IMG/VR virus record: IMGVR_UViG_3300024301_000077
Location: 1 to 26,474 of that record
Source: a virus
Length of the DNA stretch: 26,474 nucleotides
Reading direction: 5' to 3' (one strand)
In this document: positions 6,831 through 21,827 of the stretch, piece by piece
Position numbering within the stretch: the first letter of the stretch is position 1
Layout of the letters: every line of letters starts with the position of its first letter
Notes under the pieces: generated by a model
The model's input: only the letters and a program-made list of their open reading frames with translations
Told to the model about the DNA's origin: nothing
Database searches by the model: none
Program-made: the position numbers and the translations under genes

Positions 6831-7289
6831 ATGAGTCAGTGGTACAGAAAAGTTACTTCTGATATGAGTGAAATCGTTAGCGCGATTTCACACTTTGAAC
6901 AAGAAATTGATCAAGCAAGATTGGAGTGTGGTATGAAAGGTAATCTCGAAAGACAGAGCCGTGACATGCCAGGTATAGTCGAGCACCGTTTCAACCAACT
7001 CCAGGAAGTAGAAGCAATTCTTGAATATCTAAATACTGAAATGCGAAAAATTCGCAGTAAAATATTTCGTAAATATTTAGAATCCTATAATAGGGCTTTA
7101 AGTTCTAGAGATGCTGAAAAATTCGTTGATGGGGAAGAAGACGTTGTAGCATTACAATACCTCATTAACGATTTTTCTCTTGTTCGAAATAGATTCATTG
7201 GTATCATCAAGGCACTAGAAGCAAAGCAATTTCAAATTAATAATATTGTAAAACTTAGAGCAGCTGGACTGGAAGACATAACTCTATGA
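6831..7289 (+). CDS. uvsY: UvsY-like recombination mediator
   Basis: UvsY helps load UvsX onto gp32-covered ssDNA. This 152-residue helical protein resembles T4 UvsY (137 aa) mainly in the C-terminal part: IIKALEAKQFQINNIVKLR here against T4 ALDAIKSRGFAIKHIQDMR, and a preceding region with the same layout (aromatic YLESYNRALSSRD, then an acidic stretch). The N-terminal half is helical with an LQEVEAILEYLN segment. Position directly downstream of gp32 and uvsX supports the role. The match is by eye and moderate; the alternative is an unrelated helical protein. It overlaps the next gene by 4 nt (ATGA). Confidence 0.62.
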   Translation: MSQWYRKVTSDMSEIVSAISHFEQEIDQARLECGMKGNLERQSRDMPGIVEHRFNQLQEVEAILEYLNTEMRKIRSKIFRKYLESYNRALSSRDAEKFVDGEEDVVALQYLINDFSLVRNRFIGIIKALEAKQFQINNIVKLRAAGLEDITL

Positions 7290-8458
7290 GTGATACTTTT
7301 TGCATTTTACCTTGGACGCATGTATATACAAATCCTAAAGGAATGTGTACTTCTTGTTGTGATTCTAGGATGGAGCCTTTTGAATGGCAACAAAATTTTA
7401 AAGATACAATTAATCATTCAGAATTACAAAAATTAAGATCAGATTTAGCAAACGGAGTAAAGAATCCACATTGTAGTTTTTGTTGGAACAAAGAAGATGC
7501 AGGGCTGAAAAGTGTCCGTCAAATTATGAATAACAGCATAATATATAAAGATATAAATGTTTCCGAATTTACCAACTCAGATTATAGTTTAACAGATCCT
7601 AAAATTAGATACTTAGACATAAGGTCTAGTAATTTATGTAATTACAAATGTAGGTTTTGCGGTCCTACTCTAAGTAACAGTTGGGTTCCAATATGGAGAC
7701 AATTAACAAAATTAAAAAACGATCCGTGGCCCAAAAATGGTATTATAGAATTTGATATCCAAGCAACCGATATTTTAGATCATATTCAATATATAAGATC
7801 AGTTCATCTTGCAGGAGGAGAACCCGTTCTTATGCCAGGAACTTATTGGCTTCTTGATCAATTTATTGAAAGAAAGTTGTTTGATGTTAGATGGTCTATT
7901 ATTAGTAATACTAGTAGATTGAGCTATGGAAATAAAAAAATCACTGATTTATTAAAACATTTTGAAGATGTATGCTGGTCAATGAGCATTGATGCTATCG
8001 GAAAGAAACATTCTTATCTTAGAAGTAATGCTAATGACTGGGATATAGTATATCAAAATTCACAGACTTTGATAGATATGAGAAAAAATTCTTCATTAAA
8101 GAAACTTTTTATACATTGCAGTGTATCATGGTTAAATTTATATGCTGCGTATGATGTATGGGAGATGTATCATGATAAAGTAGATCAGTTTGATTTCAAT
8201 TTTGTTTTCTATCCTGCCCATTTTAATATACATAATGTTTTACCTGAATCTGAAATACAACGTGCAATAAAATTTTATGAAAGTAAGGAAAAACATCCAG
8301 ATTTAGACAAAATCTTATCGTTTCTAAGAACAAAACCTGATGATTGTCAAGACTTACTAGATGTAGCGAAAAAATTTCATGAAGAGCACGATCAAGTTAG
8401 ATTTGAAAATCTTTTAGATTGTTTTCCAGAATGGGAAAACATGTTAAAAAATAGTTGA
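7286..8458 (+). CDS. Radical SAM protein, twitch-domain type
   Basis: A 390-residue radical SAM enzyme. The canonical cluster site C118-x3-C122-x2-C125 (LCNYKCRFCGP) should bind the [4Fe-4S] cluster that cleaves S-adenosylmethionine. LAGGEPVLM around 175-183 matches the GGE motif. The N-terminal FCILPW (5-10), CTSCC (21-25) and CSFCWNKEDAGLKS (63-76) match the twitch-type radical SAM family as I remember it, where such Cys bind an auxiliary cluster. The substrate is unknown; relatives occur in surface-sugar clusters and in marine phage genomes. It overlaps the UvsY-like gene by 4 nt, so it belongs to the recombination operon. Its stop codon lies inside the -35 box of the next promoter. Confidence 0.85.
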   Translation: MSDTFCILPWTHVYTNPKGMCTSCCDSRMEPFEWQQNFKDTINHSELQKLRSDLANGVKNPHCSFCWNKEDAGLKSVRQIMNNSIIYKDINVSEFTNSDYSLTDPKIRYLDIRSSNLCNYKCRFCGPTLSNSWVPIWRQLTKLKNDPWPKNGIIEFDIQATDILDHIQYIRSVHLAGGEPVLMPGTYWLLDQFIERKLFDVRWSIISNTSRLSYGNKKITDLLKHFEDVCWSMSIDAIGKKHSYLRSNANDWDIVYQNSQTLIDMRKNSSLKKLFIHCSVSWLNLYAAYDVWEMYHDKVDQFDFNFVFYPAHFNIHNVLPESEIQRAIKFYESKEKHPDLDKILSFLRTKPDDCQDLLDVAKKFHEEHDQVRFENLLDCFPEWENMLKNS

Positions 8459-10774: not shown

Positions 10775-12226
10775 ATGAATTGTAAAATTATATTAAAAGA
10801 TGAAGTAAACTGTAAGATTGAAGGGCTTGATCTCGACACACGAAAAAAGTTAGAGAAAGAGCTCAAATTCTTCATGCCTTATGCCTATCATGTTCCTGCA
10901 TATAAACTAGGACGTTGGGATGGTTGTGTGAGCTTTTTTACTATCGGAGGTGTTACATACACTAATTTGTTGGATATGCTTGTCCCTATCATCATAGGAG
11001 AAGGATATTCTATAGAGATACAAGATTATAGACAGTCAGTTACTTTTGATTTTGATGAAGTAGATGAAACAACATTTCAACATAAAGTATGGCCTAAAGG
11101 ACACCCCGTTGAAGGCGAACCAGTTACATTGCGTGATTATCAAATTGAGATTGTAAACAAGTTTTTAGAAACACCGCATTGTTTGCAAGAAATTGCAACT
11201 GGTGCTGGCAAAACTCTTATTACAGCAGCTCTAAGTTCTAAAGTAGAAAAATACGGTCGAAGTATTGTAATTGTCCCTAACAAAGATCTAGTTACACAAA
11301 CTTATGCGGATTATATAAACTTAGGATTAGATGTAGGTGTTTATTACGGAGACAAAAAAGAAATTGGAAAAACTCATACCATTTGTACATGGCAGAGCTT
11401 AAATAGTATTAAGAAACAATTTCGCGAAGCAAAAAGCGATATGAGCGTTGCAGAGTTTGCAGAAGATGTGATCTGTGTAATAGTAGATGAAGTTCATCAA
11501 GCAAAAGCAGATGTTTTGAAAGAACTATTAACTAAAGATTTTGCACATATACCATTACGTTGGGGATTAACAGGAACCATACCTAAGGCAGATCATGAAA
11601 AAATAGCATTGAAAGCATGTCTTGGAGAAGTTGTTAATAAACTTACAACTAGTGAACTACAAGAAGAAGGAGTGCTAAGTAATTGTCACGTTAATGTAAT
11701 TCAACTAGAAGAGACTGTGGAATATAATAACTATCAAAGTGAACTAACATACTTAACAAGCGATAAGAAGCGCATGGAGTATATCAGTAAACTTATAGAA
11801 ACAATCAGTGAGAGTGGTAATACACTGATACTTGTAGACAGAATTAAGTCAGGAAACATGATTGTTGATAATGTTCCTGGTGCTAGTTTTGTTAGTGGTA
11901 GTATGAAAACGACAGTAAGGAAAGATCATTATGATGAAATCAACACAGAGGACCAGCGAGTCCTTGTGGCAACGTATGGCGTGGCGGCTGTCGGGATTAA
12001 TATACCTCGCATTTTTAACCTTGTACTTCTTGAGTCTGGTAAGTCTTTTGTTCGTGTCATCCAGTCTATTGGGCGTGGTGTTCGTAAAGCACAAGATAAA
12101 GACTTTGTTCAAATCTGGGACATCACTAGTACAGCAAAATTCTCAAAACGACATTTAAGAGAAAGAAAGAACTTCTATAAAGAAGCCAATTACCCATTTA
12201 CCATAGAAAAAGTAAAATACAAATGA
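10775..12226 (+). CDS. uvsW: UvsW helicase (RecG-like SF2)
   Basis: RNA-DNA and branched-DNA helicase of T4-like phages; it unwinds R-loops, remodels stalled forks and promotes the switch to recombination-dependent replication. The 483-residue product has the UvsW N-terminal domain (KLGRWDG, about 44-50), the Q-motif-like LRDYQ (119-123), motif I ATGAGKT (141-147), DEVH box (238-241), LTGTIPK (265-271) and motif VI QSIGRGVRKA near the C-terminus. In T4 uvsW is a late gene; here it has a sigma70-type promoter and so looks early. It starts an operon of six genes joined by 1-14 nt overlaps. The predicted mRNA is leaderless. Confidence 0.96.
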   Translation: MNCKIILKDEVNCKIEGLDLDTRKKLEKELKFFMPYAYHVPAYKLGRWDGCVSFFTIGGVTYTNLLDMLVPIIIGEGYSIEIQDYRQSVTFDFDEVDETTFQHKVWPKGHPVEGEPVTLRDYQIEIVNKFLETPHCLQEIATGAGKTLITAALSSKVEKYGRSIVIVPNKDLVTQTYADYINLGLDVGVYYGDKKEIGKTHTICTWQSLNSIKKQFREAKSDMSVAEFAEDVICVIVDEVHQAKADVLKELLTKDFAHIPLRWGLTGTIPKADHEKIALKACLGEVVNKLTTSELQEEGVLSNCHVNVIQLEETVEYNNYQSELTYLTSDKKRMEYISKLIETISESGNTLILVDRIKSGNMIVDNVPGASFVSGSMKTTVRKDHYDEINTEDQRVLVATYGVAAVGINIPRIFNLVLLESGKSFVRVIQSIGRGVRKAQDKDFVQIWDITSTAKFSKRHLRERKNFYKEANYPFTIEKVKYK

Positions 12227-12723
12227 AAATATTAACAGTAGAAAATCAAACATATGAACTTGATGAAATACCAGATCAAATAGAAGATTTAAGATATGGT
12301 GTATTAGATTATAGTGATCCTAAAAACGTCGACTATTATTTTGTTCCCCTAGTATTTTTAGAAAGTTTTTATAGTCCTGCAGCAATATTACAAATAGGAA
12401 AAAACCAAATAAGTGTTCCATTAGATTGGAGTATGGTTATTTGTGATCATGAGGTAGGAGAACCAGAAGTAGTGAGTTTAATGAGTTTGAATGACAGAGG
12501 ATTTACTGCTTTTTCTTTCAATCCTATTACTGGATTCTCTCCAAAATACCTTGAAATTCAAATGATAAACGTCTATACTGATGTTAAGTGGTATGCTCCA
12601 AAATTAAAATTTGGGCACCTACTCTGCGTTCCTTTAACTAATGATAATAATCCAGACTGTGTATTGTTTGTTAAAGAAGCAAATAAAATACCTGAGGTTT
12701 TAGATATAAATGTCATCTGGTAA
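12223..12723 (+). CDS. Conserved hypothetical protein downstream of uvsW
   Basis: A 166-residue protein predicted to be mostly beta, with no enzyme motif I can identify. Segments such as YFVPLVFLESFYSPAA (39-54), VPLDWSMVI and AFSFNPITGF look like conserved structural cores. It begins inside the uvsW stop (ATGA) and overlaps the next gene by 14 nt. I recall similar hypothetical proteins next to replication genes in marine T4-like phages. Function unknown; a replication or clamp-related accessory is only guilt by association. Confidence 0.82.
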   Translation: MKILTVENQTYELDEIPDQIEDLRYGVLDYSDPKNVDYYFVPLVFLESFYSPAAILQIGKNQISVPLDWSMVICDHEVGEPEVVSLMSLNDRGFTAFSFNPITGFSPKYLEIQMINVYTDVKWYAPKLKFGHLLCVPLTNDNNPDCVLFVKEANKIPEVLDINVIW

Positions 12724-13177
12724 GTTAAGTATTAAAAGTGAAATGACTGCTATCGACACCAAAGATCGTTCTTGGTATAATAGTCTTAGTGAAGATGAAA
12801 AGAAGAAATTAGGAATATGGATCCTAATGAGATATACAAGCAGTGTTAAACATGATATTAAAGATTTTGAAGAACATTATTTAGAATGGACGAATGAATT
12901 AGTCAATGTTCATTTTAATACATTAAGACATCATCCTGAACTACAATTTAAACTTTTACAAGCATTAGGGCTTGGAAAATCAATGTATCATCCATGGATT
13001 GCGCCTGGTAAAAAAGGAACAGAAACAAAACTTTTTAAATTTTTTAAAGAGCATTATGTAGAATACAATGATGATGAGATAATACTTTTATTATCTCAGT
13101 TTCCAAAAGATGAACTTAAAGAAAAATTGGAAGAATTTGGTTTAGATAATAAAAGTATCAAAGAATTAATGAAATAA
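12710..13177 (+). CDS. 62: gp62-like clamp loader small subunit
   Basis: In T4, gp62 pairs with the ATPase gp44 to load the sliding clamp gp45. This 155-residue helical protein follows the gp62 layout: an N-terminal RYTSS segment (about 41-45) in the place of the family's NR(Y/S)-S motif, a middle HPELQFKLLQALGLGK (75-90), a Lys-rich link, then a helix FKEHYVEYNDDEIILLLSQF (about 107-126) and a C-terminal LEEFGLDNKSIKELMK. The match is by pattern and moderate. No gp44 or gp45 is in this window, and the AAA+ protein at 9819 does not look like gp44. It overlaps both neighbours. An in-frame ATG at 12743 is an alternative start. Confidence 0.6.
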   Translation: MSSGKLSIKSEMTAIDTKDRSWYNSLSEDEKKKLGIWILMRYTSSVKHDIKDFEEHYLEWTNELVNVHFNTLRHHPELQFKLLQALGLGKSMYHPWIAPGKKGTETKLFKFFKEHYVEYNDDEIILLLSQFPKDELKEKLEEFGLDNKSIKELMK

Positions 13178-13851
13178 TGTTTGTATGTGAATACTGTAAT
13201 TCAAGTTTTAAGAGGGAGCGAACGTTAAGTGTCCATGTCTGTGAGCCTAAACGTAGGCACTTACAAAAAAATAGTAAGCATGTCCGTCTAGCATTTAGAA
13301 GTTATCAGTTATTTTATAAAATTGGGACAAACACAAAAAAGGAAAAAACATATGACGACTTTGCCGGAAGTCAATATTATAATGCTTTTGTTAAATTTGG
13401 TAGTTATTGTTTAGATTTAAAAATAGATGATGTGCCGGATTTTGTAAAATGGTTATTAACAAATCAAATACCTATTGATAGGTGGGTTAGTGATACACAA
13501 TTTAATAAGTGGATTAAAGAAAGACTTAAAACAGAAACAGTTGATAGGGCAGTAGAACGAACAGTTCTATTTCTTCAAGATTGGGGTGAAGATAACGCTA
13601 ATGCTTGGAATTCATACTTTGAAGCAGTGCCAACAAATCTAGCAGTGTTTCATATATGTGCTGGAAAAATTAGTCCATGGGTACTTTATGCAAGTAATAG
13701 AGCTCAAGGGTTATTAGATAGATTAAATGAAGAACAGATAAAAATGATTATTGAATACATTGACCCTCATGTATGGCAGATAAGAATGAAAAGACATCAA
13801 AAGGATTTTGATTGGGTTAAAAAATTATTAGAAAAGGCGGATCTTGCATAA
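13177..13851 (+). CDS. Zinc-finger-type conserved hypothetical protein
   Basis: A 224-residue protein starting with a compact finger: C4-x2-C7, then H20 and C22 (SVHVCEPKRRH), consistent with a single C2H2/C2HC-like zinc finger in the first 28 residues. The rest is helical and aromatic-rich, with DWGEDNANAWNSYFEAV (131-147) and AGKISPWVLYASNRAQG. Its start overlaps the gp62-like stop by 1 nt and its stop overlaps the next start by 1 nt. I recall a matching family of unknown function in marine T4-like phages. A nucleic-acid-binding replication accessory is plausible but not shown. Confidence 0.82.
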   Translation: MFVCEYCNSSFKRERTLSVHVCEPKRRHLQKNSKHVRLAFRSYQLFYKIGTNTKKEKTYDDFAGSQYYNAFVKFGSYCLDLKIDDVPDFVKWLLTNQIPIDRWVSDTQFNKWIKERLKTETVDRAVERTVLFLQDWGEDNANAWNSYFEAVPTNLAVFHICAGKISPWVLYASNRAQGLLDRLNEEQIKMIIEYIDPHVWQIRMKRHQKDFDWVKKLLEKADLA

Positions 13852-14564
13852 TGAACAAATTTATTTTTGATGTTGATGGTACAATAACACCGAGTAGACA
13901 ACTTATAGACCCAGGGTTTAAATCGTTTATGATGGAGTTTGCTATACGAAATCAAGTATTTTTAGTGACTGGTAGTGATAAACCTAAAACTATTGAGCAG
14001 ATTGGTGAGGATATGTTTAATGCCTGTCACACAGTATATAATTGTAGTGGTTGTGATGTATGGCAAAGCAAGAAGAATATTAGAAAAATTGAATGGGAAC
14101 CTGAGCAAGACGTAATTGACTTTCTCGAAAAAGAATTAGCAAAAAGTAAATTCTATAAGAAAACCGGACTACATATTGAAATAAGAACAGGCATGCTAAA
14201 CTTTAGTATTGTTGGTCGTAGGTGTAGTACTGAAGAACGATTCATGTATGCTGAATGGGATGACCATAAACAGGAAAGACAAGGAATAGCAAAGCGTTTT
14301 AATAAAAAATTTCCTGATCTAAAAGCAAATGTAGCAGGTGAAACAGGTATTGATATTGCTCCTAAAAACTTAAACAAAGCACAAATTTTAGTTGACTTTA
14401 ATAAGGAAGATGTATTATATTTCTTTGGTGATAAAATTACTGAAAATGGAAATGATTATCCATTAGCACAGGCTATTACTAATGGAAATAGTTATAGTGT
14501 TGAAGGCTGGAAAGAAACATATTCAAAACTACAATTAATGAAAGTAATGGGCATAGCAAAATGA
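13851..14564 (+). CDS. HAD-superfamily hydrolase, phosphomannomutase (PMM2)-like
   Basis: A 237-residue HAD protein. Motif I is FDVDGTITPSR with catalytic D7 and D9; motif II region is LVTGSDKPKTIEQIG (38-52); a substrate-loop-like RTGMLNFSIVGRRCSTEER (about 112-130) and a C-terminal FFGDKITENGNDYPLA resemble eukaryotic-type phosphomannomutases, which carry RNGMLN..PIGR and FGDKT..GGND at these places. Length (PMMs are about 250 aa) also fits. It could act on a sugar phosphate or nucleotide, as a mutase or phosphatase; the sequence does not decide. It lies in an early replication operon, overlapping neighbours by 1 and 4 nt, which is odd for a sugar enzyme. Confidence 0.85.
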   Translation: MNKFIFDVDGTITPSRQLIDPGFKSFMMEFAIRNQVFLVTGSDKPKTIEQIGEDMFNACHTVYNCSGCDVWQSKKNIRKIEWEPEQDVIDFLEKELAKSKFYKKTGLHIEIRTGMLNFSIVGRRCSTEERFMYAEWDDHKQERQGIAKRFNKKFPDLKANVAGETGIDIAPKNLNKAQILVDFNKEDVLYFFGDKITENGNDYPLAQAITNGNSYSVEGWKETYSKLQLMKVMGIAK

Positions 14565-15145
14565 TAGTTAACACTGATATTGATATTGATGTAGCAGATA
14601 GAAATAGATTACTTAGACTTATAAAGAATACACCTGCTATGATTAATCGTGATAACAAAAAAGTAAAACATAATACTGGTGTGTATTTTCATGAAGTTCC
14701 TGAAAATCCGTTTAATGGATTATGTACTATTGATTATAAAGATGCGGAAAGTTTGGGTTATTTTAAACTAGATATTCTTAATGTAAATATTTATGAAAAA
14801 ATTAAAGATACAAAACAATTAGATGATTTGTTGTCCATGGAGCCTATGTGGGATTTGCTAGAATATGAAGATATTGTTAAGCAATGTTTTCATATTCATA
14901 ATCATTTTGATGTAGTAAAAAAGATGAAACCTCGAAGCGTAGAACAACTTGCCGCAGTTTTGGCAGTTATTCGTCCAGCAAAAAGACATTTACTTGGTAA
15001 AAGTTGGGATATTATTATGTCAGATGTTTGGAAAAAACCCAATGACGACAGTTATTATTTCAAAAAGGCACACGCTCATGCCTATGCTTTAGCAATAGTA
15101 CTTCAATTAAATCAACTTGTCAAAGATTTTTCTTTACAAGGCTGA
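14561..15145 (+). CDS. Miniature DnaE/PolC-like protein (polymerase III alpha palm/fingers remnant)
   Basis: A 194-residue protein whose motifs run in the same order as the catalytic core of bacterial replicative polymerase III alpha. DIDID at 6-10 aligns with the E. coli PDFDVDF motif carrying D401 and D403. LGYFKLDILNVN (65-76) aligns with the KFDFLGL motif carrying D555. VKKMKPRSVEQLAAVLAVIRP (from 119) aligns with the region before the fingers' RPGP motif, and FKKAHAHAYA (167-176) with the NKSHAxAY motif. All three catalytic aspartates thus appear kept, while PHP, thumb, tail and OB domains (about 900 residues) are absent. Alignment is from memory. It may be a reduced polymerase-like enzyme or a repurposed fold. 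Last gene of the uvsW operon; its 3' end overlaps the minus-strand gene by 26 nt. Confidence 0.7.
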   Translation: MIVNTDIDIDVADRNRLLRLIKNTPAMINRDNKKVKHNTGVYFHEVPENPFNGLCTIDYKDAESLGYFKLDILNVNIYEKIKDTKQLDDLLSMEPMWDLLEYEDIVKQCFHIHNHFDVVKKMKPRSVEQLAAVLAVIRPAKRHLLGKSWDIIMSDVWKKPNDDSYYFKKAHAHAYALAIVLQLNQLVKDFSLQG

Positions 15146-15491
15146 TGCTTCGTCTCTTAATTCGTTTCGTTATATTATCGCTTAGTCTAACTTCGGGACC
15201 TGATAAAATCTCCATTTGTTTTACACTAAAACTTTGACTTGTATAACTAAACGGCCATCTATTCATTAGAGCAATATTGATTGGTAAACGACGATTAGTC
15301 TCCCACCACCATTCCTCTCCGAGCTGAAGGAATAGTTTTTTCTCTTCCACATCTCTCAATCTATTATAAACATACATGCTCGCAATTTGAGTATCGATGT
15401 TTTGCATAATACCGACATATTCATTGTTTGCATAAGATATAACAGTAAGAAATGGATATTTTTCCAAAAATTCTTGATACTTTGTTATCAT
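15120..15491 (-). CDS. Conserved hypothetical protein, only minus-strand gene
   Basis: A 123-residue protein; the best explanation of a stretch with no plus-strand gene. It reads like a real protein (FLEKYPFLTVISYANNEYVGI, FLQLGEEWWWETNRRLPIN, then a basic tail KRIKRRSISLVKK) and resembles hypothetical proteins I recall from T4-like cyanophages. Function unknown. Its 3' end overlaps the mini-DnaE gene tail-to-tail by 26 nt, and its 5' end faces away from a strong late promoter. No clear Shine-Dalgarno precedes the start. On the minus strand TAAATA (plus coordinates 15500-15505) would give a transcript start 3 nt before the ATG, suggesting late, nearly leaderless expression. Confidence 0.8.
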   Translation of the reverse strand: MITKYQEFLEKYPFLTVISYANNEYVGIMQNIDTQIASMYVYNRLRDVEEKKLFLQLGEEWWWETNRRLPINIALMNRWPFSYTSQSFSVKQMEILSGPEVRLSDNITKRIKRRSISLVKKNL

Positions 15492-16397: not shown

Positions 16398-17414
16398 ATG
16401 GCTTTAATTACTGAATTCGTGAAAACTGTGATTCCTGTGAACTGGAAATCTACCCCTAGTGGATGGACATCCGGTAATTGTCCTATGTGTGTTATTAATG
16501 GGCAAGGCCGCCCTGATACAAAAGGTAGAGGCGGCATAAGGTTTGATGATGATAAGTTTCAGTACAACTGTTTTAACTGTGGTTACAAAACTGGCTGGAG
16601 TCCTGGAAAACGTATTACAGGTAGACTAAAACGACTATTTCAACAATTCGGTGTTGATGAATCTGAAGTTCAAAGACTACAACTTGAATTACTTAAAGAA
16701 GAAGATGTAGCAGTAGTATTAGCAAGACAAGCAAAACGCAATGAGCCTGTTATTATTGATTGGGATGAATATCAACTTCCAGAAGGTGCCCAAAGTATTT
16801 GCGATTACACCGGAGAACCAACCCCAGAATTTATAAAAGCAGTTGAGTATTTGTATGAGCGTGGATTTGATCCAATGGATCCACGTTTTATGTACAGTCC
16901 AGCGAGCGCACCTGGTAGGATGAAGAACAGATTTATTGTGCCGTTCACATATAAGGACAAGGTAGTTGGTTATACTGCTCGCTGGATTGGCAATCCTCCA
17001 GAAGGCATGCCCAAGTATTTTAATCAACAACCTAAAAACAATTTTGTGTATGGTTTGGATAGACAAACACCGGACAAGAACATTGTTATAGTAACTGAAG
17101 GACAACTGGATGCCATTGTAACAGATGGTGTTGCTATTGGCAGTAACAATATCAATGATGATCAAGCAAATATTATTGATAGTTTGCAAAAACGTGTTAT
17201 ACTATTAGCAGATGCAGATAGTGCAGGTATGCGAGCAGTATACAAAGCCATAGAGCGTGGCTGGAGTGTGTCGTTTCCTGAATGGGATGATTGTAAAGAT
17301 GCAAGCGATGCTCTATTAAAGTATGGTAGATTGTTTACAGTGCGTAGTATATTGGACAGTGCGGTTAGCAATCCAACTAAGATTAAAGTATTAGCGAAAT
17401 CATATTGTAGATGA
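16398..17414 (+). CDS. 61: DNA primase gp61
   Basis: Synthesises RNA primers for lagging-strand replication together with helicase gp41. The 338 residues contain an N-terminal zinc-binding domain with C28-x2-C31 and C58-x2-C61, and a TOPRIM domain with VTEGQLDAI (232-240, E234) and LLADADSAG (269-277, D272 and D274). A substrate-handling segment RFIVPFTYKDKVVGYTARW lies between. Length matches T4 gp61 (342 aa). It has its own early promoter inside the preceding late gene and overlaps the 48-aa gene by 4 nt (ATGA), so primase, small protein and helicase form one operon. Confidence 0.95.
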   Translation: MALITEFVKTVIPVNWKSTPSGWTSGNCPMCVINGQGRPDTKGRGGIRFDDDKFQYNCFNCGYKTGWSPGKRITGRLKRLFQQFGVDESEVQRLQLELLKEEDVAVVLARQAKRNEPVIIDWDEYQLPEGAQSICDYTGEPTPEFIKAVEYLYERGFDPMDPRFMYSPASAPGRMKNRFIVPFTYKDKVVGYTARWIGNPPEGMPKYFNQQPKNNFVYGLDRQTPDKNIVIVTEGQLDAIVTDGVAIGSNNINDDQANIIDSLQKRVILLADADSAGMRAVYKAIERGWSVSFPEWDDCKDASDALLKYGRLFTVRSILDSAVSNPTKIKVLAKSYCR

Positions 17415-17557
17415 GACTTACGGATGAGCAAATTAAAGACTTTATTGAATGGGGAGGCGAAAGGTTGCCTAACCCAGATAACTACCCTCGAGTATTTGAA
17501 TATTATTTAATGCTGTATATGTATATTAAAAAGATAGGACCGTTTAATGGCAAATGA
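17411..17557 (+). CDS. 48-aa small protein between primase and helicase
   Basis: A short gene in the 132-nt gap between gp61 and gp41. It starts with an ATGA overlap with the primase stop and ends 11 nt inside the helicase gene, the same coupling style as its neighbours. The protein begins MRLTDEQIKDFIEWGGERLP and continues with a Tyr-rich helical segment (FEYYLMLYMYIKKIGPF). It reads as a small helical protein that could bind the primase-helicase complex. No family assigned; the coupling and clean reading frame are the evidence. Confidence 0.75.
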   Translation: MRLTDEQIKDFIEWGGERLPNPDNYPRVFEYYLMLYMYIKKIGPFNGK

Positions 17558-18929
17558 TTATAATGTAGAAATGCAAAAACTATTTGTAGAATTCCTAGCA
17601 CAGGATCAAGACTTATTTGTGCGTGTTAATGGTATTCTTGATACAGAATACTTTGATAGAACATTGCGTAAAAGTGTTGAATTTATTAGGAAACATGCAA
17701 ATGAATATGGTGCATTACCTACACTGCAACAAATTAAGGCAAGTACTGGCACTGAATTAGGTGGGATACCTGATGTAGATGACAGACATAAGAAATGGTT
17801 TGTAGATGAGTTTGAACAATTTTGTAAACACAAAGCACTGGAAAGTGCTATCCTAAAAAGCACAGACTTGTTGGAAAAAAGTGAATACGGCGCAGTAGAA
17901 AAATTAGTTAAAGATGCAGTCCAACTTGGCCTAGCAAAACACATGGGTACAAATTATTGGGATGATCCAGCAGGCCGCATCGAAAAAGTTCGTAACAGTC
18001 GTGGTGGTACAAGTACAGGATGGAAAGGTATTGATCAGAAACTTTATGGCGGATTTAACAGAGGAGAACTAAACATTTTTGCGGCGGCCTCAGGCGGCGG
18101 TAAAAGTTTGTTCTTACAAAACTTGGCACTTAATTGGGCATTGGAAGGCATGAACGTATTGTACATTAGTTTGGAACTTAGTGAAGAACTATGTAGTATG
18201 CGTCTTGATAGTATGCTTACAGGTTATAATACAAAAGAGGTATTTCGCAATACAGATGATGTAGATTTAAAAGTGCGTATGGCTGGTAAAAAAGCAGGAC
18301 GTTTACAGATTGTACAACTTCCTAATGGTATTACATGTAATGATTTAACAAGTTATATGCGTGAATTTGAAGTCAAGACTGGTGTTAAAGTAGACTGTAT
18401 GTTACTTGACTATTTGGACTTGATGATGCCTGCACAACGCAAAGTACCACCAAGTGATTTGTTTATTAAAGATAAATTTGTAAGTGAGGAGCTGCGTAAC
18501 TTTGCAGTAGAACATGATATGTTATTCGCAACAGCCTCACAGTTAAACCGTAGTGCAGTAGAAGAAATTGAATTTGATCATAGTCATATTAGTGGTGGTT
18601 TAAGTAAGATTCAAACAGCAGATAATGTTATTGGTATCTTTACAAGCCAAGCAATGCGTGAACGTGGTAGATATCAAGTACAGTTTATGAAAACACGAAG
18701 TAGTGCTGGTGTTGGACAAAAAGTAGATTTGGCATTTGATATAGCAGGATTGCGTATTACAGATCTAGAAGATGGCGAAGAAAGTGCTGAAGTTGCAACG
18801 GTAAATGGAACACTAGATAAAATACGCAGACAATCCACAGTAACACAAAACTTAACTGAAAACAATCTTGTTGAAAGAGCTGTTGATCGATCTGAGAAGA
18901 TGCGTGGTTTACTGAAAAAACAGGATTAA
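17547..18929 (+). CDS. 41: Replicative DNA helicase gp41 (DnaB-like)
   Basis: Hexameric 5'-3' helicase of the T4-type primosome. The 460-residue protein has an N-terminal helical domain (about 1-140), then the RecA-like core with GWKGIDQKLYGGFNRGELNI (158-177), Walker A AASGGGKS (180-187), a Walker-B-type CMLLDYLDLM and the DnaB-family ATASQLNRSA sensor segment. The C-terminal 60 residues are charged and probably flexible. Length is close to T4 gp41 (475 aa). It follows primase and the 48-aa gene in one operon. No terminator is visible after it; a late promoter begins 5 nt past its stop. Confidence 0.96.
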   Translation: MANDYNVEMQKLFVEFLAQDQDLFVRVNGILDTEYFDRTLRKSVEFIRKHANEYGALPTLQQIKASTGTELGGIPDVDDRHKKWFVDEFEQFCKHKALESAILKSTDLLEKSEYGAVEKLVKDAVQLGLAKHMGTNYWDDPAGRIEKVRNSRGGTSTGWKGIDQKLYGGFNRGELNIFAAASGGGKSLFLQNLALNWALEGMNVLYISLELSEELCSMRLDSMLTGYNTKEVFRNTDDVDLKVRMAGKKAGRLQIVQLPNGITCNDLTSYMREFEVKTGVKVDCMLLDYLDLMMPAQRKVPPSDLFIKDKFVSEELRNFAVEHDMLFATASQLNRSAVEEIEFDHSHISGGLSKIQTADNVIGIFTSQAMRERGRYQVQFMKTRSSAGVGQKVDLAFDIAGLRITDLEDGEESAEVATVNGTLDKIRRQSTVTQNLTENNLVERAVDRSEKMRGLLKKQD

Positions 18930-21179: not shown

Positions 21180-21827
21180 ATGCAAGAAAAATATCTTTTA
21201 ATCGGACAACCACGCAGCGGAACAACATATCTATCAGCAATTTTTCAAAGATCTTTTTTCTTGAACCACTCCGGTGCTGCATATAATGAGCAAATAAAGA
21301 AAATTAATAATACCAATGATATTAAAATATTTTTAAACCATGTAAATAGTAAAAATCTCAAACATCCTGTAGTCGTTAAAGAACATCTCTGCTTATTACA
21401 AGATAATAATATTGATATAACTCAAGAATTTAATAATTTTTATCGCATTAAAATCATAAGAAAAAACATATCAGAAATAGCAATGAGTATGCTTATTGCT
21501 AGAGAACTTAATAAATATGAATTTTGGACAAATGAAGAAATAATATTTCCTAAATTCATAGTAAATGAAAGTGATGCAAAAGAATCATATTCTATAAGTA
21601 AAAAAAGACTGCAGGATATTGAAAGTTTAGATATAGAAACCCATCAAACAATATATTACGAAGATTTAACTGGAGATCCACTTAAAGATCAATTACTATT
21701 TCCAATGTTCCAAAATAATCCTATAAAAGAATTTGATAAAATCACAGTTAAAACTGCTGGTTATCAAGATAGTATTTTAAATTACAATGATGTGTTAGAA
21801 TGGTTTGACGAGGTAAAAAATATATGA
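21180..21827 (+). CDS. Sulfotransferase-like protein
   Basis: A 215-residue protein with the PAPS-binding 5'-phosphosulfate loop GQPRSGTTYL (9-18) and a later RIKIIRKNISEIAMSM segment matching the 3'-phosphate-binding region of sulfotransferases. Then TIYYEDLTGDP, a typical family element. These enzymes move sulfate from PAPS to sugars, lipids or proteins; the acceptor here is unknown. It starts directly after the preceding stop and overlaps the next gene by 4 nt, within a late structural unit. Compared with its neighbours it is Asn/Ile-rich and looks more A+T-rich, as does the radical SAM gene, which could mean recent acquisition. Confidence 0.85.
   Translation: MQEKYLLIGQPRSGTTYLSAIFQRSFFLNHSGAAYNEQIKKINNTNDIKIFLNHVNSKNLKHPVVVKEHLCLLQDNNIDITQEFNNFYRIKIIRKNISEIAMSMLIARELNKYEFWTNEEIIFPKFIVNESDAKESYSISKKRLQDIESLDIETHQTIYYEDLTGDPLKDQLLFPMFQNNPIKEFDKITVKTAGYQDSILNYNDVLEWFDEVKNI

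Follow-up and report, generated by a model that had tools for sequence, protein, structure and literature searches.

The open reading frame (ORF) at 14561-15145 of the window, i.e., of the whole 26,474-nucleotide stretch of viral DNA analyzed here (IMG/VR virus record IMGVR_UViG_3300024301_000077), encodes a homologue of the palm and fingers of DNA polymerase III alpha and is a new, well-preserved member of the split minimal Pol III alpha described in 2021, a reduced polymerase of bacterial type that occurs as two proteins in large T4-like phages next to their main polymerase. Its product is probably the C-terminal subunit of a putative two-protein minimal family-C DNA polymerase with an accessory role at the phage replication fork. 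The ORF, referred to below as the C-half, starts with ATG and specifies 194 amino acids:

14561..15145, + strand: C-terminal subunit of the split minimal DNA polymerase III alpha (phrog_11778), consisting of the Mg2+-binding palm half and shortened fingers

The homology to DnaE and the retention of the catalytic aspartates follow from the agreement of profile comparisons, fold searches and residue conservation. The ORF matched the family phrog_11778 ("DNA polymerase") with an E-value of 1.9e-65 over residues 4-189 of 194, and also phrog_405, the full-length phage DnaE family (E 2.9e-5). When the protein was compared with an alignment of ten DnaE sequences using hhalign, a probability of 92.8 and an E-value of 4.1e-7 were obtained. 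Nothing decisive came from Pfam, NCBIfam or a single-sequence PDB search, the matches to the Pfam fingers family PF17657 (E 0.094) and to TIGR00594 of NCBIfam (E 0.032) being below threshold and suggestive only; the decisive support was provided by family profiles and folds only. The preliminary description had claimed an ORF at this position with DnaE motifs in a given order, and both are present, the order being beyond chance; with DnaE profile matches in hand, the claim of homology stands.

The motifs of the window protein were assigned by reading an alignment of C-half members against a DnaE reference alignment made up of E. coli DnaE and nine divergent DnaE sequences:

14576..14590, + strand: codons of D6-I-D8-I-D10, equivalent to E. 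coli DnaE D401, D403 and D405
14669..14680, + strand: codons of H37-N-T-G40, equivalent to H511-G514
14765..14773, + strand: stretch with the codons of K69 and D71, equivalent to K553 and D555, D71 being the third metal ligand
14972..14977, + strand: codons of R138-P139, equivalent to R639-P640 of the fingers
15059..15085, + strand: codons of F167-K168-K169-x-H171-x-x-x-Y175, equivalent to F756-N-K-S-H760-S-A-A-Y764

D6 and D8 thus represent the first two metal ligands, while D10 is the third aspartate of the motif and corresponds to the invariant D405. It had been proposed earlier that all catalytic aspartates are kept, which is correct, and that they are D8, D10 and D71, which is not: the labels D8 and D10 lie one aspartate too far along in the alignment with E. 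coli, and the equivalents of D401, D403 and D555 are D6, D8 and D71. The DnaE reference alignment keeps R362, G363, S364, D401, D403, D405, H511, G514, K553 and D555, as well as R639, Q687, E688, R709, F756 and H760. Among 29 diverse C-half members the residues D6, D8, I9, D10, H37, G40, K69, D71, R138, P139, K141, H171 and Y175, among others, are kept. In a wider gathering of the family, D6, D8, D10, K69, D71, R138 and H171 were unchanged in every covering row (115-116 of 116 distinct ORFs), although the conservation of DIDID is biased upwards in this set since one of the three patterns used for collecting contains this motif. Purifying selection on the C-half gene is strong (omega about 0.06), the median dN/dS of 78 close pairs of C-half ORFs being 0.058.

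The window protein shares with bacterial DnaE (1160 amino acids in E. coli) the order of the palm and fingers motifs and all catalytic aspartates. In contrast to the full DnaE/PolC layout, in which PHP, complete palm, thumb, full fingers, HhH and clamp-binding parts lie in one chain, it contains only the second half of the palm and partial fingers, and the PHP, thumb, HhH, OB, clamp-binding and C-terminal domains are lacking. The thumb (about residues 430-505 in E. coli) is absent between the DIDID helix and H37, and approximately 90 residues of the fingers, including Q687, E688 and R709, are absent between R138 and F167. The nucleotide-binding R-G-S motif (E. coli R362-S364) is likewise absent from the ORF, together with the first half of the palm.

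An AlphaFold2 model of the window protein, calculated from 53 aligned sequences comprising the window and viral-contig loci only, reached a pLDDT of 91.5 and placed D8 and D10 within a strand of residues 7-11 and D71 within a strand of residues 70-74. The model has the DnaE palm/fingers fold: in a Foldseek search against the PDB, ranks 1-10 were all Pol III alpha structures (3e0d, 4iqj, 2hpi, 2hnh, 5fkw, and others) with probabilities of up to 1.00, while the entries below rank ten had mostly low probabilities. The TM scores were modest (0.36-0.42 of the query, with Foldseek E-values of 2e-3 or weaker), which is to be anticipated from a fragment with deletions.

A search with PF07733 in the records of Phosso, Paride, RaK2, Atu_ph07, Vibrio 2.275.O, SCTP-2, Slicko01, XacN1 and GAP32, one of which is a partial genome of 349 kb, revealed, far from the C-half, a second small ORF in each of these nine distinct genomes, with E-values of 1e-8 to 1e-13. 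This N-half consists of 169-188 amino acids in the nine phages, carries the invariant motif GxGRGS, and belongs to phrog_11127 in the four members scanned (4/4). Its profile matches residues 247-392 of E. coli DnaE (E 4.5e-6), and in the hhalign comparison with the DnaE alignment (probability 98.1, E 7.7e-14) the match ends at residue 393. The ten best PDB fold matches of the N-half model (pLDDT 90.9) are all Pol III alpha. R-G-S was unchanged in 92 of 92 N-half partners, and the N-half, like the C-half, is under strong constraint.

Since the N-half carries the missing R-G-S motif and ends at residue 393, and the window protein starts at about residue 400 of E. coli DnaE, the sequences indicate that the enzyme is split into two proteins and that the thumb and some of the fingers have been lost. 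The break point falls in the loop FLN(393)-PERVSM-PDFDVDF of E. coli DnaE, so that a palm formed by one chain in the bacterial enzyme is divided over two genes in the split form. C-halves measure 172-221 amino acids (160 contigs) and N-halves 158-202 amino acids (102 contigs), and no fused form was found among these 160 C-half and 102 N-half ORFs. In four contigs (L091, L096, L099, and L317), a small conserved ORF with the motif MNARGD or LNARGD directly follows the N-half gene.

The presence of all three catalytic aspartates would permit the window protein to act alone as a miniature polymerase. Yet R362-G363-S364 and the first half of the palm are found on a second conserved protein in 9/9 phages, for which reason this possibility was rejected as very improbable. 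The earlier description of the ORF as a miniature Pol III alpha core is correct with respect to the homology to DnaE but not in regarding the core as self-contained. In cyanobacteria, the two halves of DnaE are joined by a split intein, and a post-translational joining of this type might be considered here because the break also falls inside DnaE. However, the N-half stops 0-2 residues past an EFLK-type end and the C-half starts only a few residues before the first aspartate in most members; since neither end leaves room for intein fragments, the probability of such a mechanism is close to nil.

The distribution of the two halves was analyzed next to that of the family-B polymerase. Relatives of the window ORF were detected by tblastn in 63 phage records with 36-54% identity, one cluster of window relatives shows 64-74% identity, and pattern searches together with tblastn yielded C-half relatives in at least 574 viral contigs. 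The C-half was found in six of six searched N-half contigs with a length of 200 kb or more. Conversely, C-half fragments of 57-222 kb yielded two genuine N-halves, in G001, a 205-kb relative of the window, and in G023, while none was found in the C-half contigs G002 (222 kb) and G005 (117 kb). In G001, the distance from the family-B polymerase gene to the N-half beyond it is about 19 kb, and G002 already ends about 11 kb past its own family-B gene; G005 continues for about 30 kb past this gene, still without an N-half. An apparent N-half inside a longer frame of G024 was rejected, as it turned out to belong to another kind of enzyme, a short DnaE in a single chain. Both halves are present in L088 (OQ508956), a circular phage record of 141 kb and thus well below jumbo size. 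A family-B polymerase was identified in 12 of 18 records, including all nine phages and the relatives G001, G002 and G005, and most of the open frames checked contain the DTDS catalytic motif. This T4 gp43-type enzyme is encoded by the same phages but has an unrelated fold and a separate gene. Within the 26-kb window fragment, neither a family-B polymerase nor, among its ORFs, an N-half was seen.

The genes surrounding the C-half in the window are as follows:

10775..12226, + strand: UvsW-type helicase of the same gene cluster (profile; synteny in relatives)
13851..14564, + strand: upstream gene, HAD/phosphomannomutase-like phosphatase (PF03332, 2e-27)
15120..15491, - strand: convergent small gene of unknown function (phrog_11637), overlapping the 3' end of the polymerase half
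16398..17414, + strand: DnaG-type (Toprim) primase (profile)
17547..18929, + strand: gp41/DnaB-type helicase (synteny and sequence, without a profile run)

The start codon of the polymerase half and the stop codon of the gene before it share the four bases ATGA (14561-14564), which we read as a sign of translational coupling with the HAD-like gene. The order uvsW - small genes - C-half - convergent gene - structural gene - primase - gp41 is that of the C-half cluster; the window has this conserved neighbourhood, with some variation among nine annotated relatives. In all nine, a lone convergent gene occupies the same position, in XacN1 one gene further on. A "gp62-like" neighbour had also been reported, but the likeliest candidate, 12710-13177, matches only phrog_11758 (function unknown). 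An epsilon-type exonuclease is encoded near the C-half in RaK2, GAP32 and XacN1, and the N-half gene has gp44 or another AAA/clamp-loader gene in its vicinity: the clamp-loader ATPase in RaK2, Paride and G001, an AAA-ATPase in Phosso. Elsewhere in the window, the sequences suggest a radical-SAM-like protein (7286-8458; NLCNYKCRFC) and a sulfotransferase-like protein (21180-21827).

Some related contigs contain a further reduced DnaE. The marine viral contig L316 encodes a single-chain, PHP-less DnaE of about 563 amino acids with all catalytic residues (1093-2781, - strand), and short single-chain DnaE genes also occur in contigs of the L322-L398 range, located after gp41 at a distance of a few kb from the C-half. 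The C-half was found in seven of eight tested contigs with this gene, and phages with both forms may carry two kinds of family-C polymerase gene. A 484-kb uncultured phage encodes a single-chain DnaE and a family-B polymerase, and both half-profiles matched there inside the single-chain frame only. No short single-chain DnaE was found in the searched close relatives of the window. Like the split form, the short enzyme (L316; uncultured phage LR756508) is a reduced, phage-encoded member of family C, but it consists of one chain and has a thumb-region segment, the fingers arginine and a C-terminal part. As a source of the split form it is not supported: the C-half profile scores hardly better against it than against ordinary DnaE (E 2.7e-7 versus 4.1e-7) and the N-half profile scores worse (E 1.2e-9 versus 7.7e-14). 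Since these scores do not favour the short DnaE, no descent of the split form from it is claimed.

With regard to function, the C-half and the N-half would come together to form a single nucleotidyl-transfer site, and the resulting dimer would add dNTPs to a primer end, presumably with low processivity because PHP, thumb, HhH, OB and clamp-binding parts are missing. At the phage fork, the pair would then have an accessory part in primer extension, gap filling or repair, and bulk synthesis would be left to the family-B enzyme. A link to the replisome is suggested by gene position, as the C-half lies in the uvsW-primase-helicase cluster and the N-half near the clamp-loader ATPase. Ordinary dNTP binding may be altered, because Q687, E688 and R709 have no counterpart in the window protein. 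It is conceivable, although rather unlikely, that a thumb-less family-C site built in trans, having lost the dNTP-gripping fingers, carries out a specialised fork reaction such as end addition or primer finishing and not ordinary copying.

Alternatively, the rebuilt enzyme might be a nucleotidyltransferase that copies no template and adds nucleotides to ends, to a protein or to a small molecule. The nucleotidyltransferase core (G-S, DxD, D) is intact and the thumb and the fingers segment with E. coli Q687, E688 and R709 are missing, while the fingers arginine is still present in the short single-chain relatives (R349 in A6). However, the retained equivalents of H511, R639, F756 and H760 and the lasting place of the gene among fork genes point to DNA synthesis, and we regard a non-templated reaction as unlikely. 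The very small size and the lack of recognised DNA-gripping domains would also suit a catalytically silent accessory, in which the DnaE fold acts as a fork- or clamp-binding adaptor or as a decoy of the host polymerase. Against this, the metal-binding aspartates and the R-G-S motif of the partner are invariant over very divergent genomes, and the clamp-binding and HhH regions of E. coli DnaE fall in the missing C-terminal part. We hold a silent accessory to be decidedly unlikely, and the purely non-catalytic decoy raised in the preliminary description is disfavoured because active-site residues are invariant in the C-half as well as in the N-half. An accessory two-protein polymerase thus remains our preferred interpretation.

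Elements of this system have been noted before. In phage CBB, a truncated alpha-like protein of 172 amino acids and an epsilon-like protein were noticed in 2017 (PMC5259590). A phage-specific "split minimal Pol III alpha" was described in group 2.2 jumbo phages, consisting of an N-terminal NTP-binding and a C-terminal Mg2+/template-binding protein that are encoded far apart; it occurs beside a family-B polymerase, and a role in the synthesis of one strand or in repair was suggested (Iyer et al., 2021; PMC7824862). The window shares with this system the small C-terminal Mg2+/template-binding protein, and window relatives share the distant N-half and the company of a family-B polymerase, UvsW, gp41 and a gp32-like SSB. 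The window differs in being an environmental viral member whose own N-half would lie outside the 26-kb fragment. The earlier statement that such a gene is "unexpected" beside a family-B polymerase was too strong: the split form had already been published (Iyer et al., 2021; PMC7824862), and DnaE-like annotations of the two halves exist in at least one public record. No biochemical study of split Pol III alpha was found in the literature, with subscription journals largely outside our coverage. The present analysis adds members from hundreds of viral contigs and from the 141-kb phage, and it defines the exact break point as well as the segments that are missing.

Taken together, the hundreds of viral contigs and the 141-kb phage show that the split polymerase is neither rare nor restricted to jumbo phages. 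In phages that have a family-B polymerase of their own, a second polymerase core, from the unrelated bacterial family C, is kept over very divergent genomes in the form of two proteins of 160-220 amino acids. Should the pair be functional, it would be close to the smallest polymerase of family C and would provide a natural example of an active site shared by two gene products.
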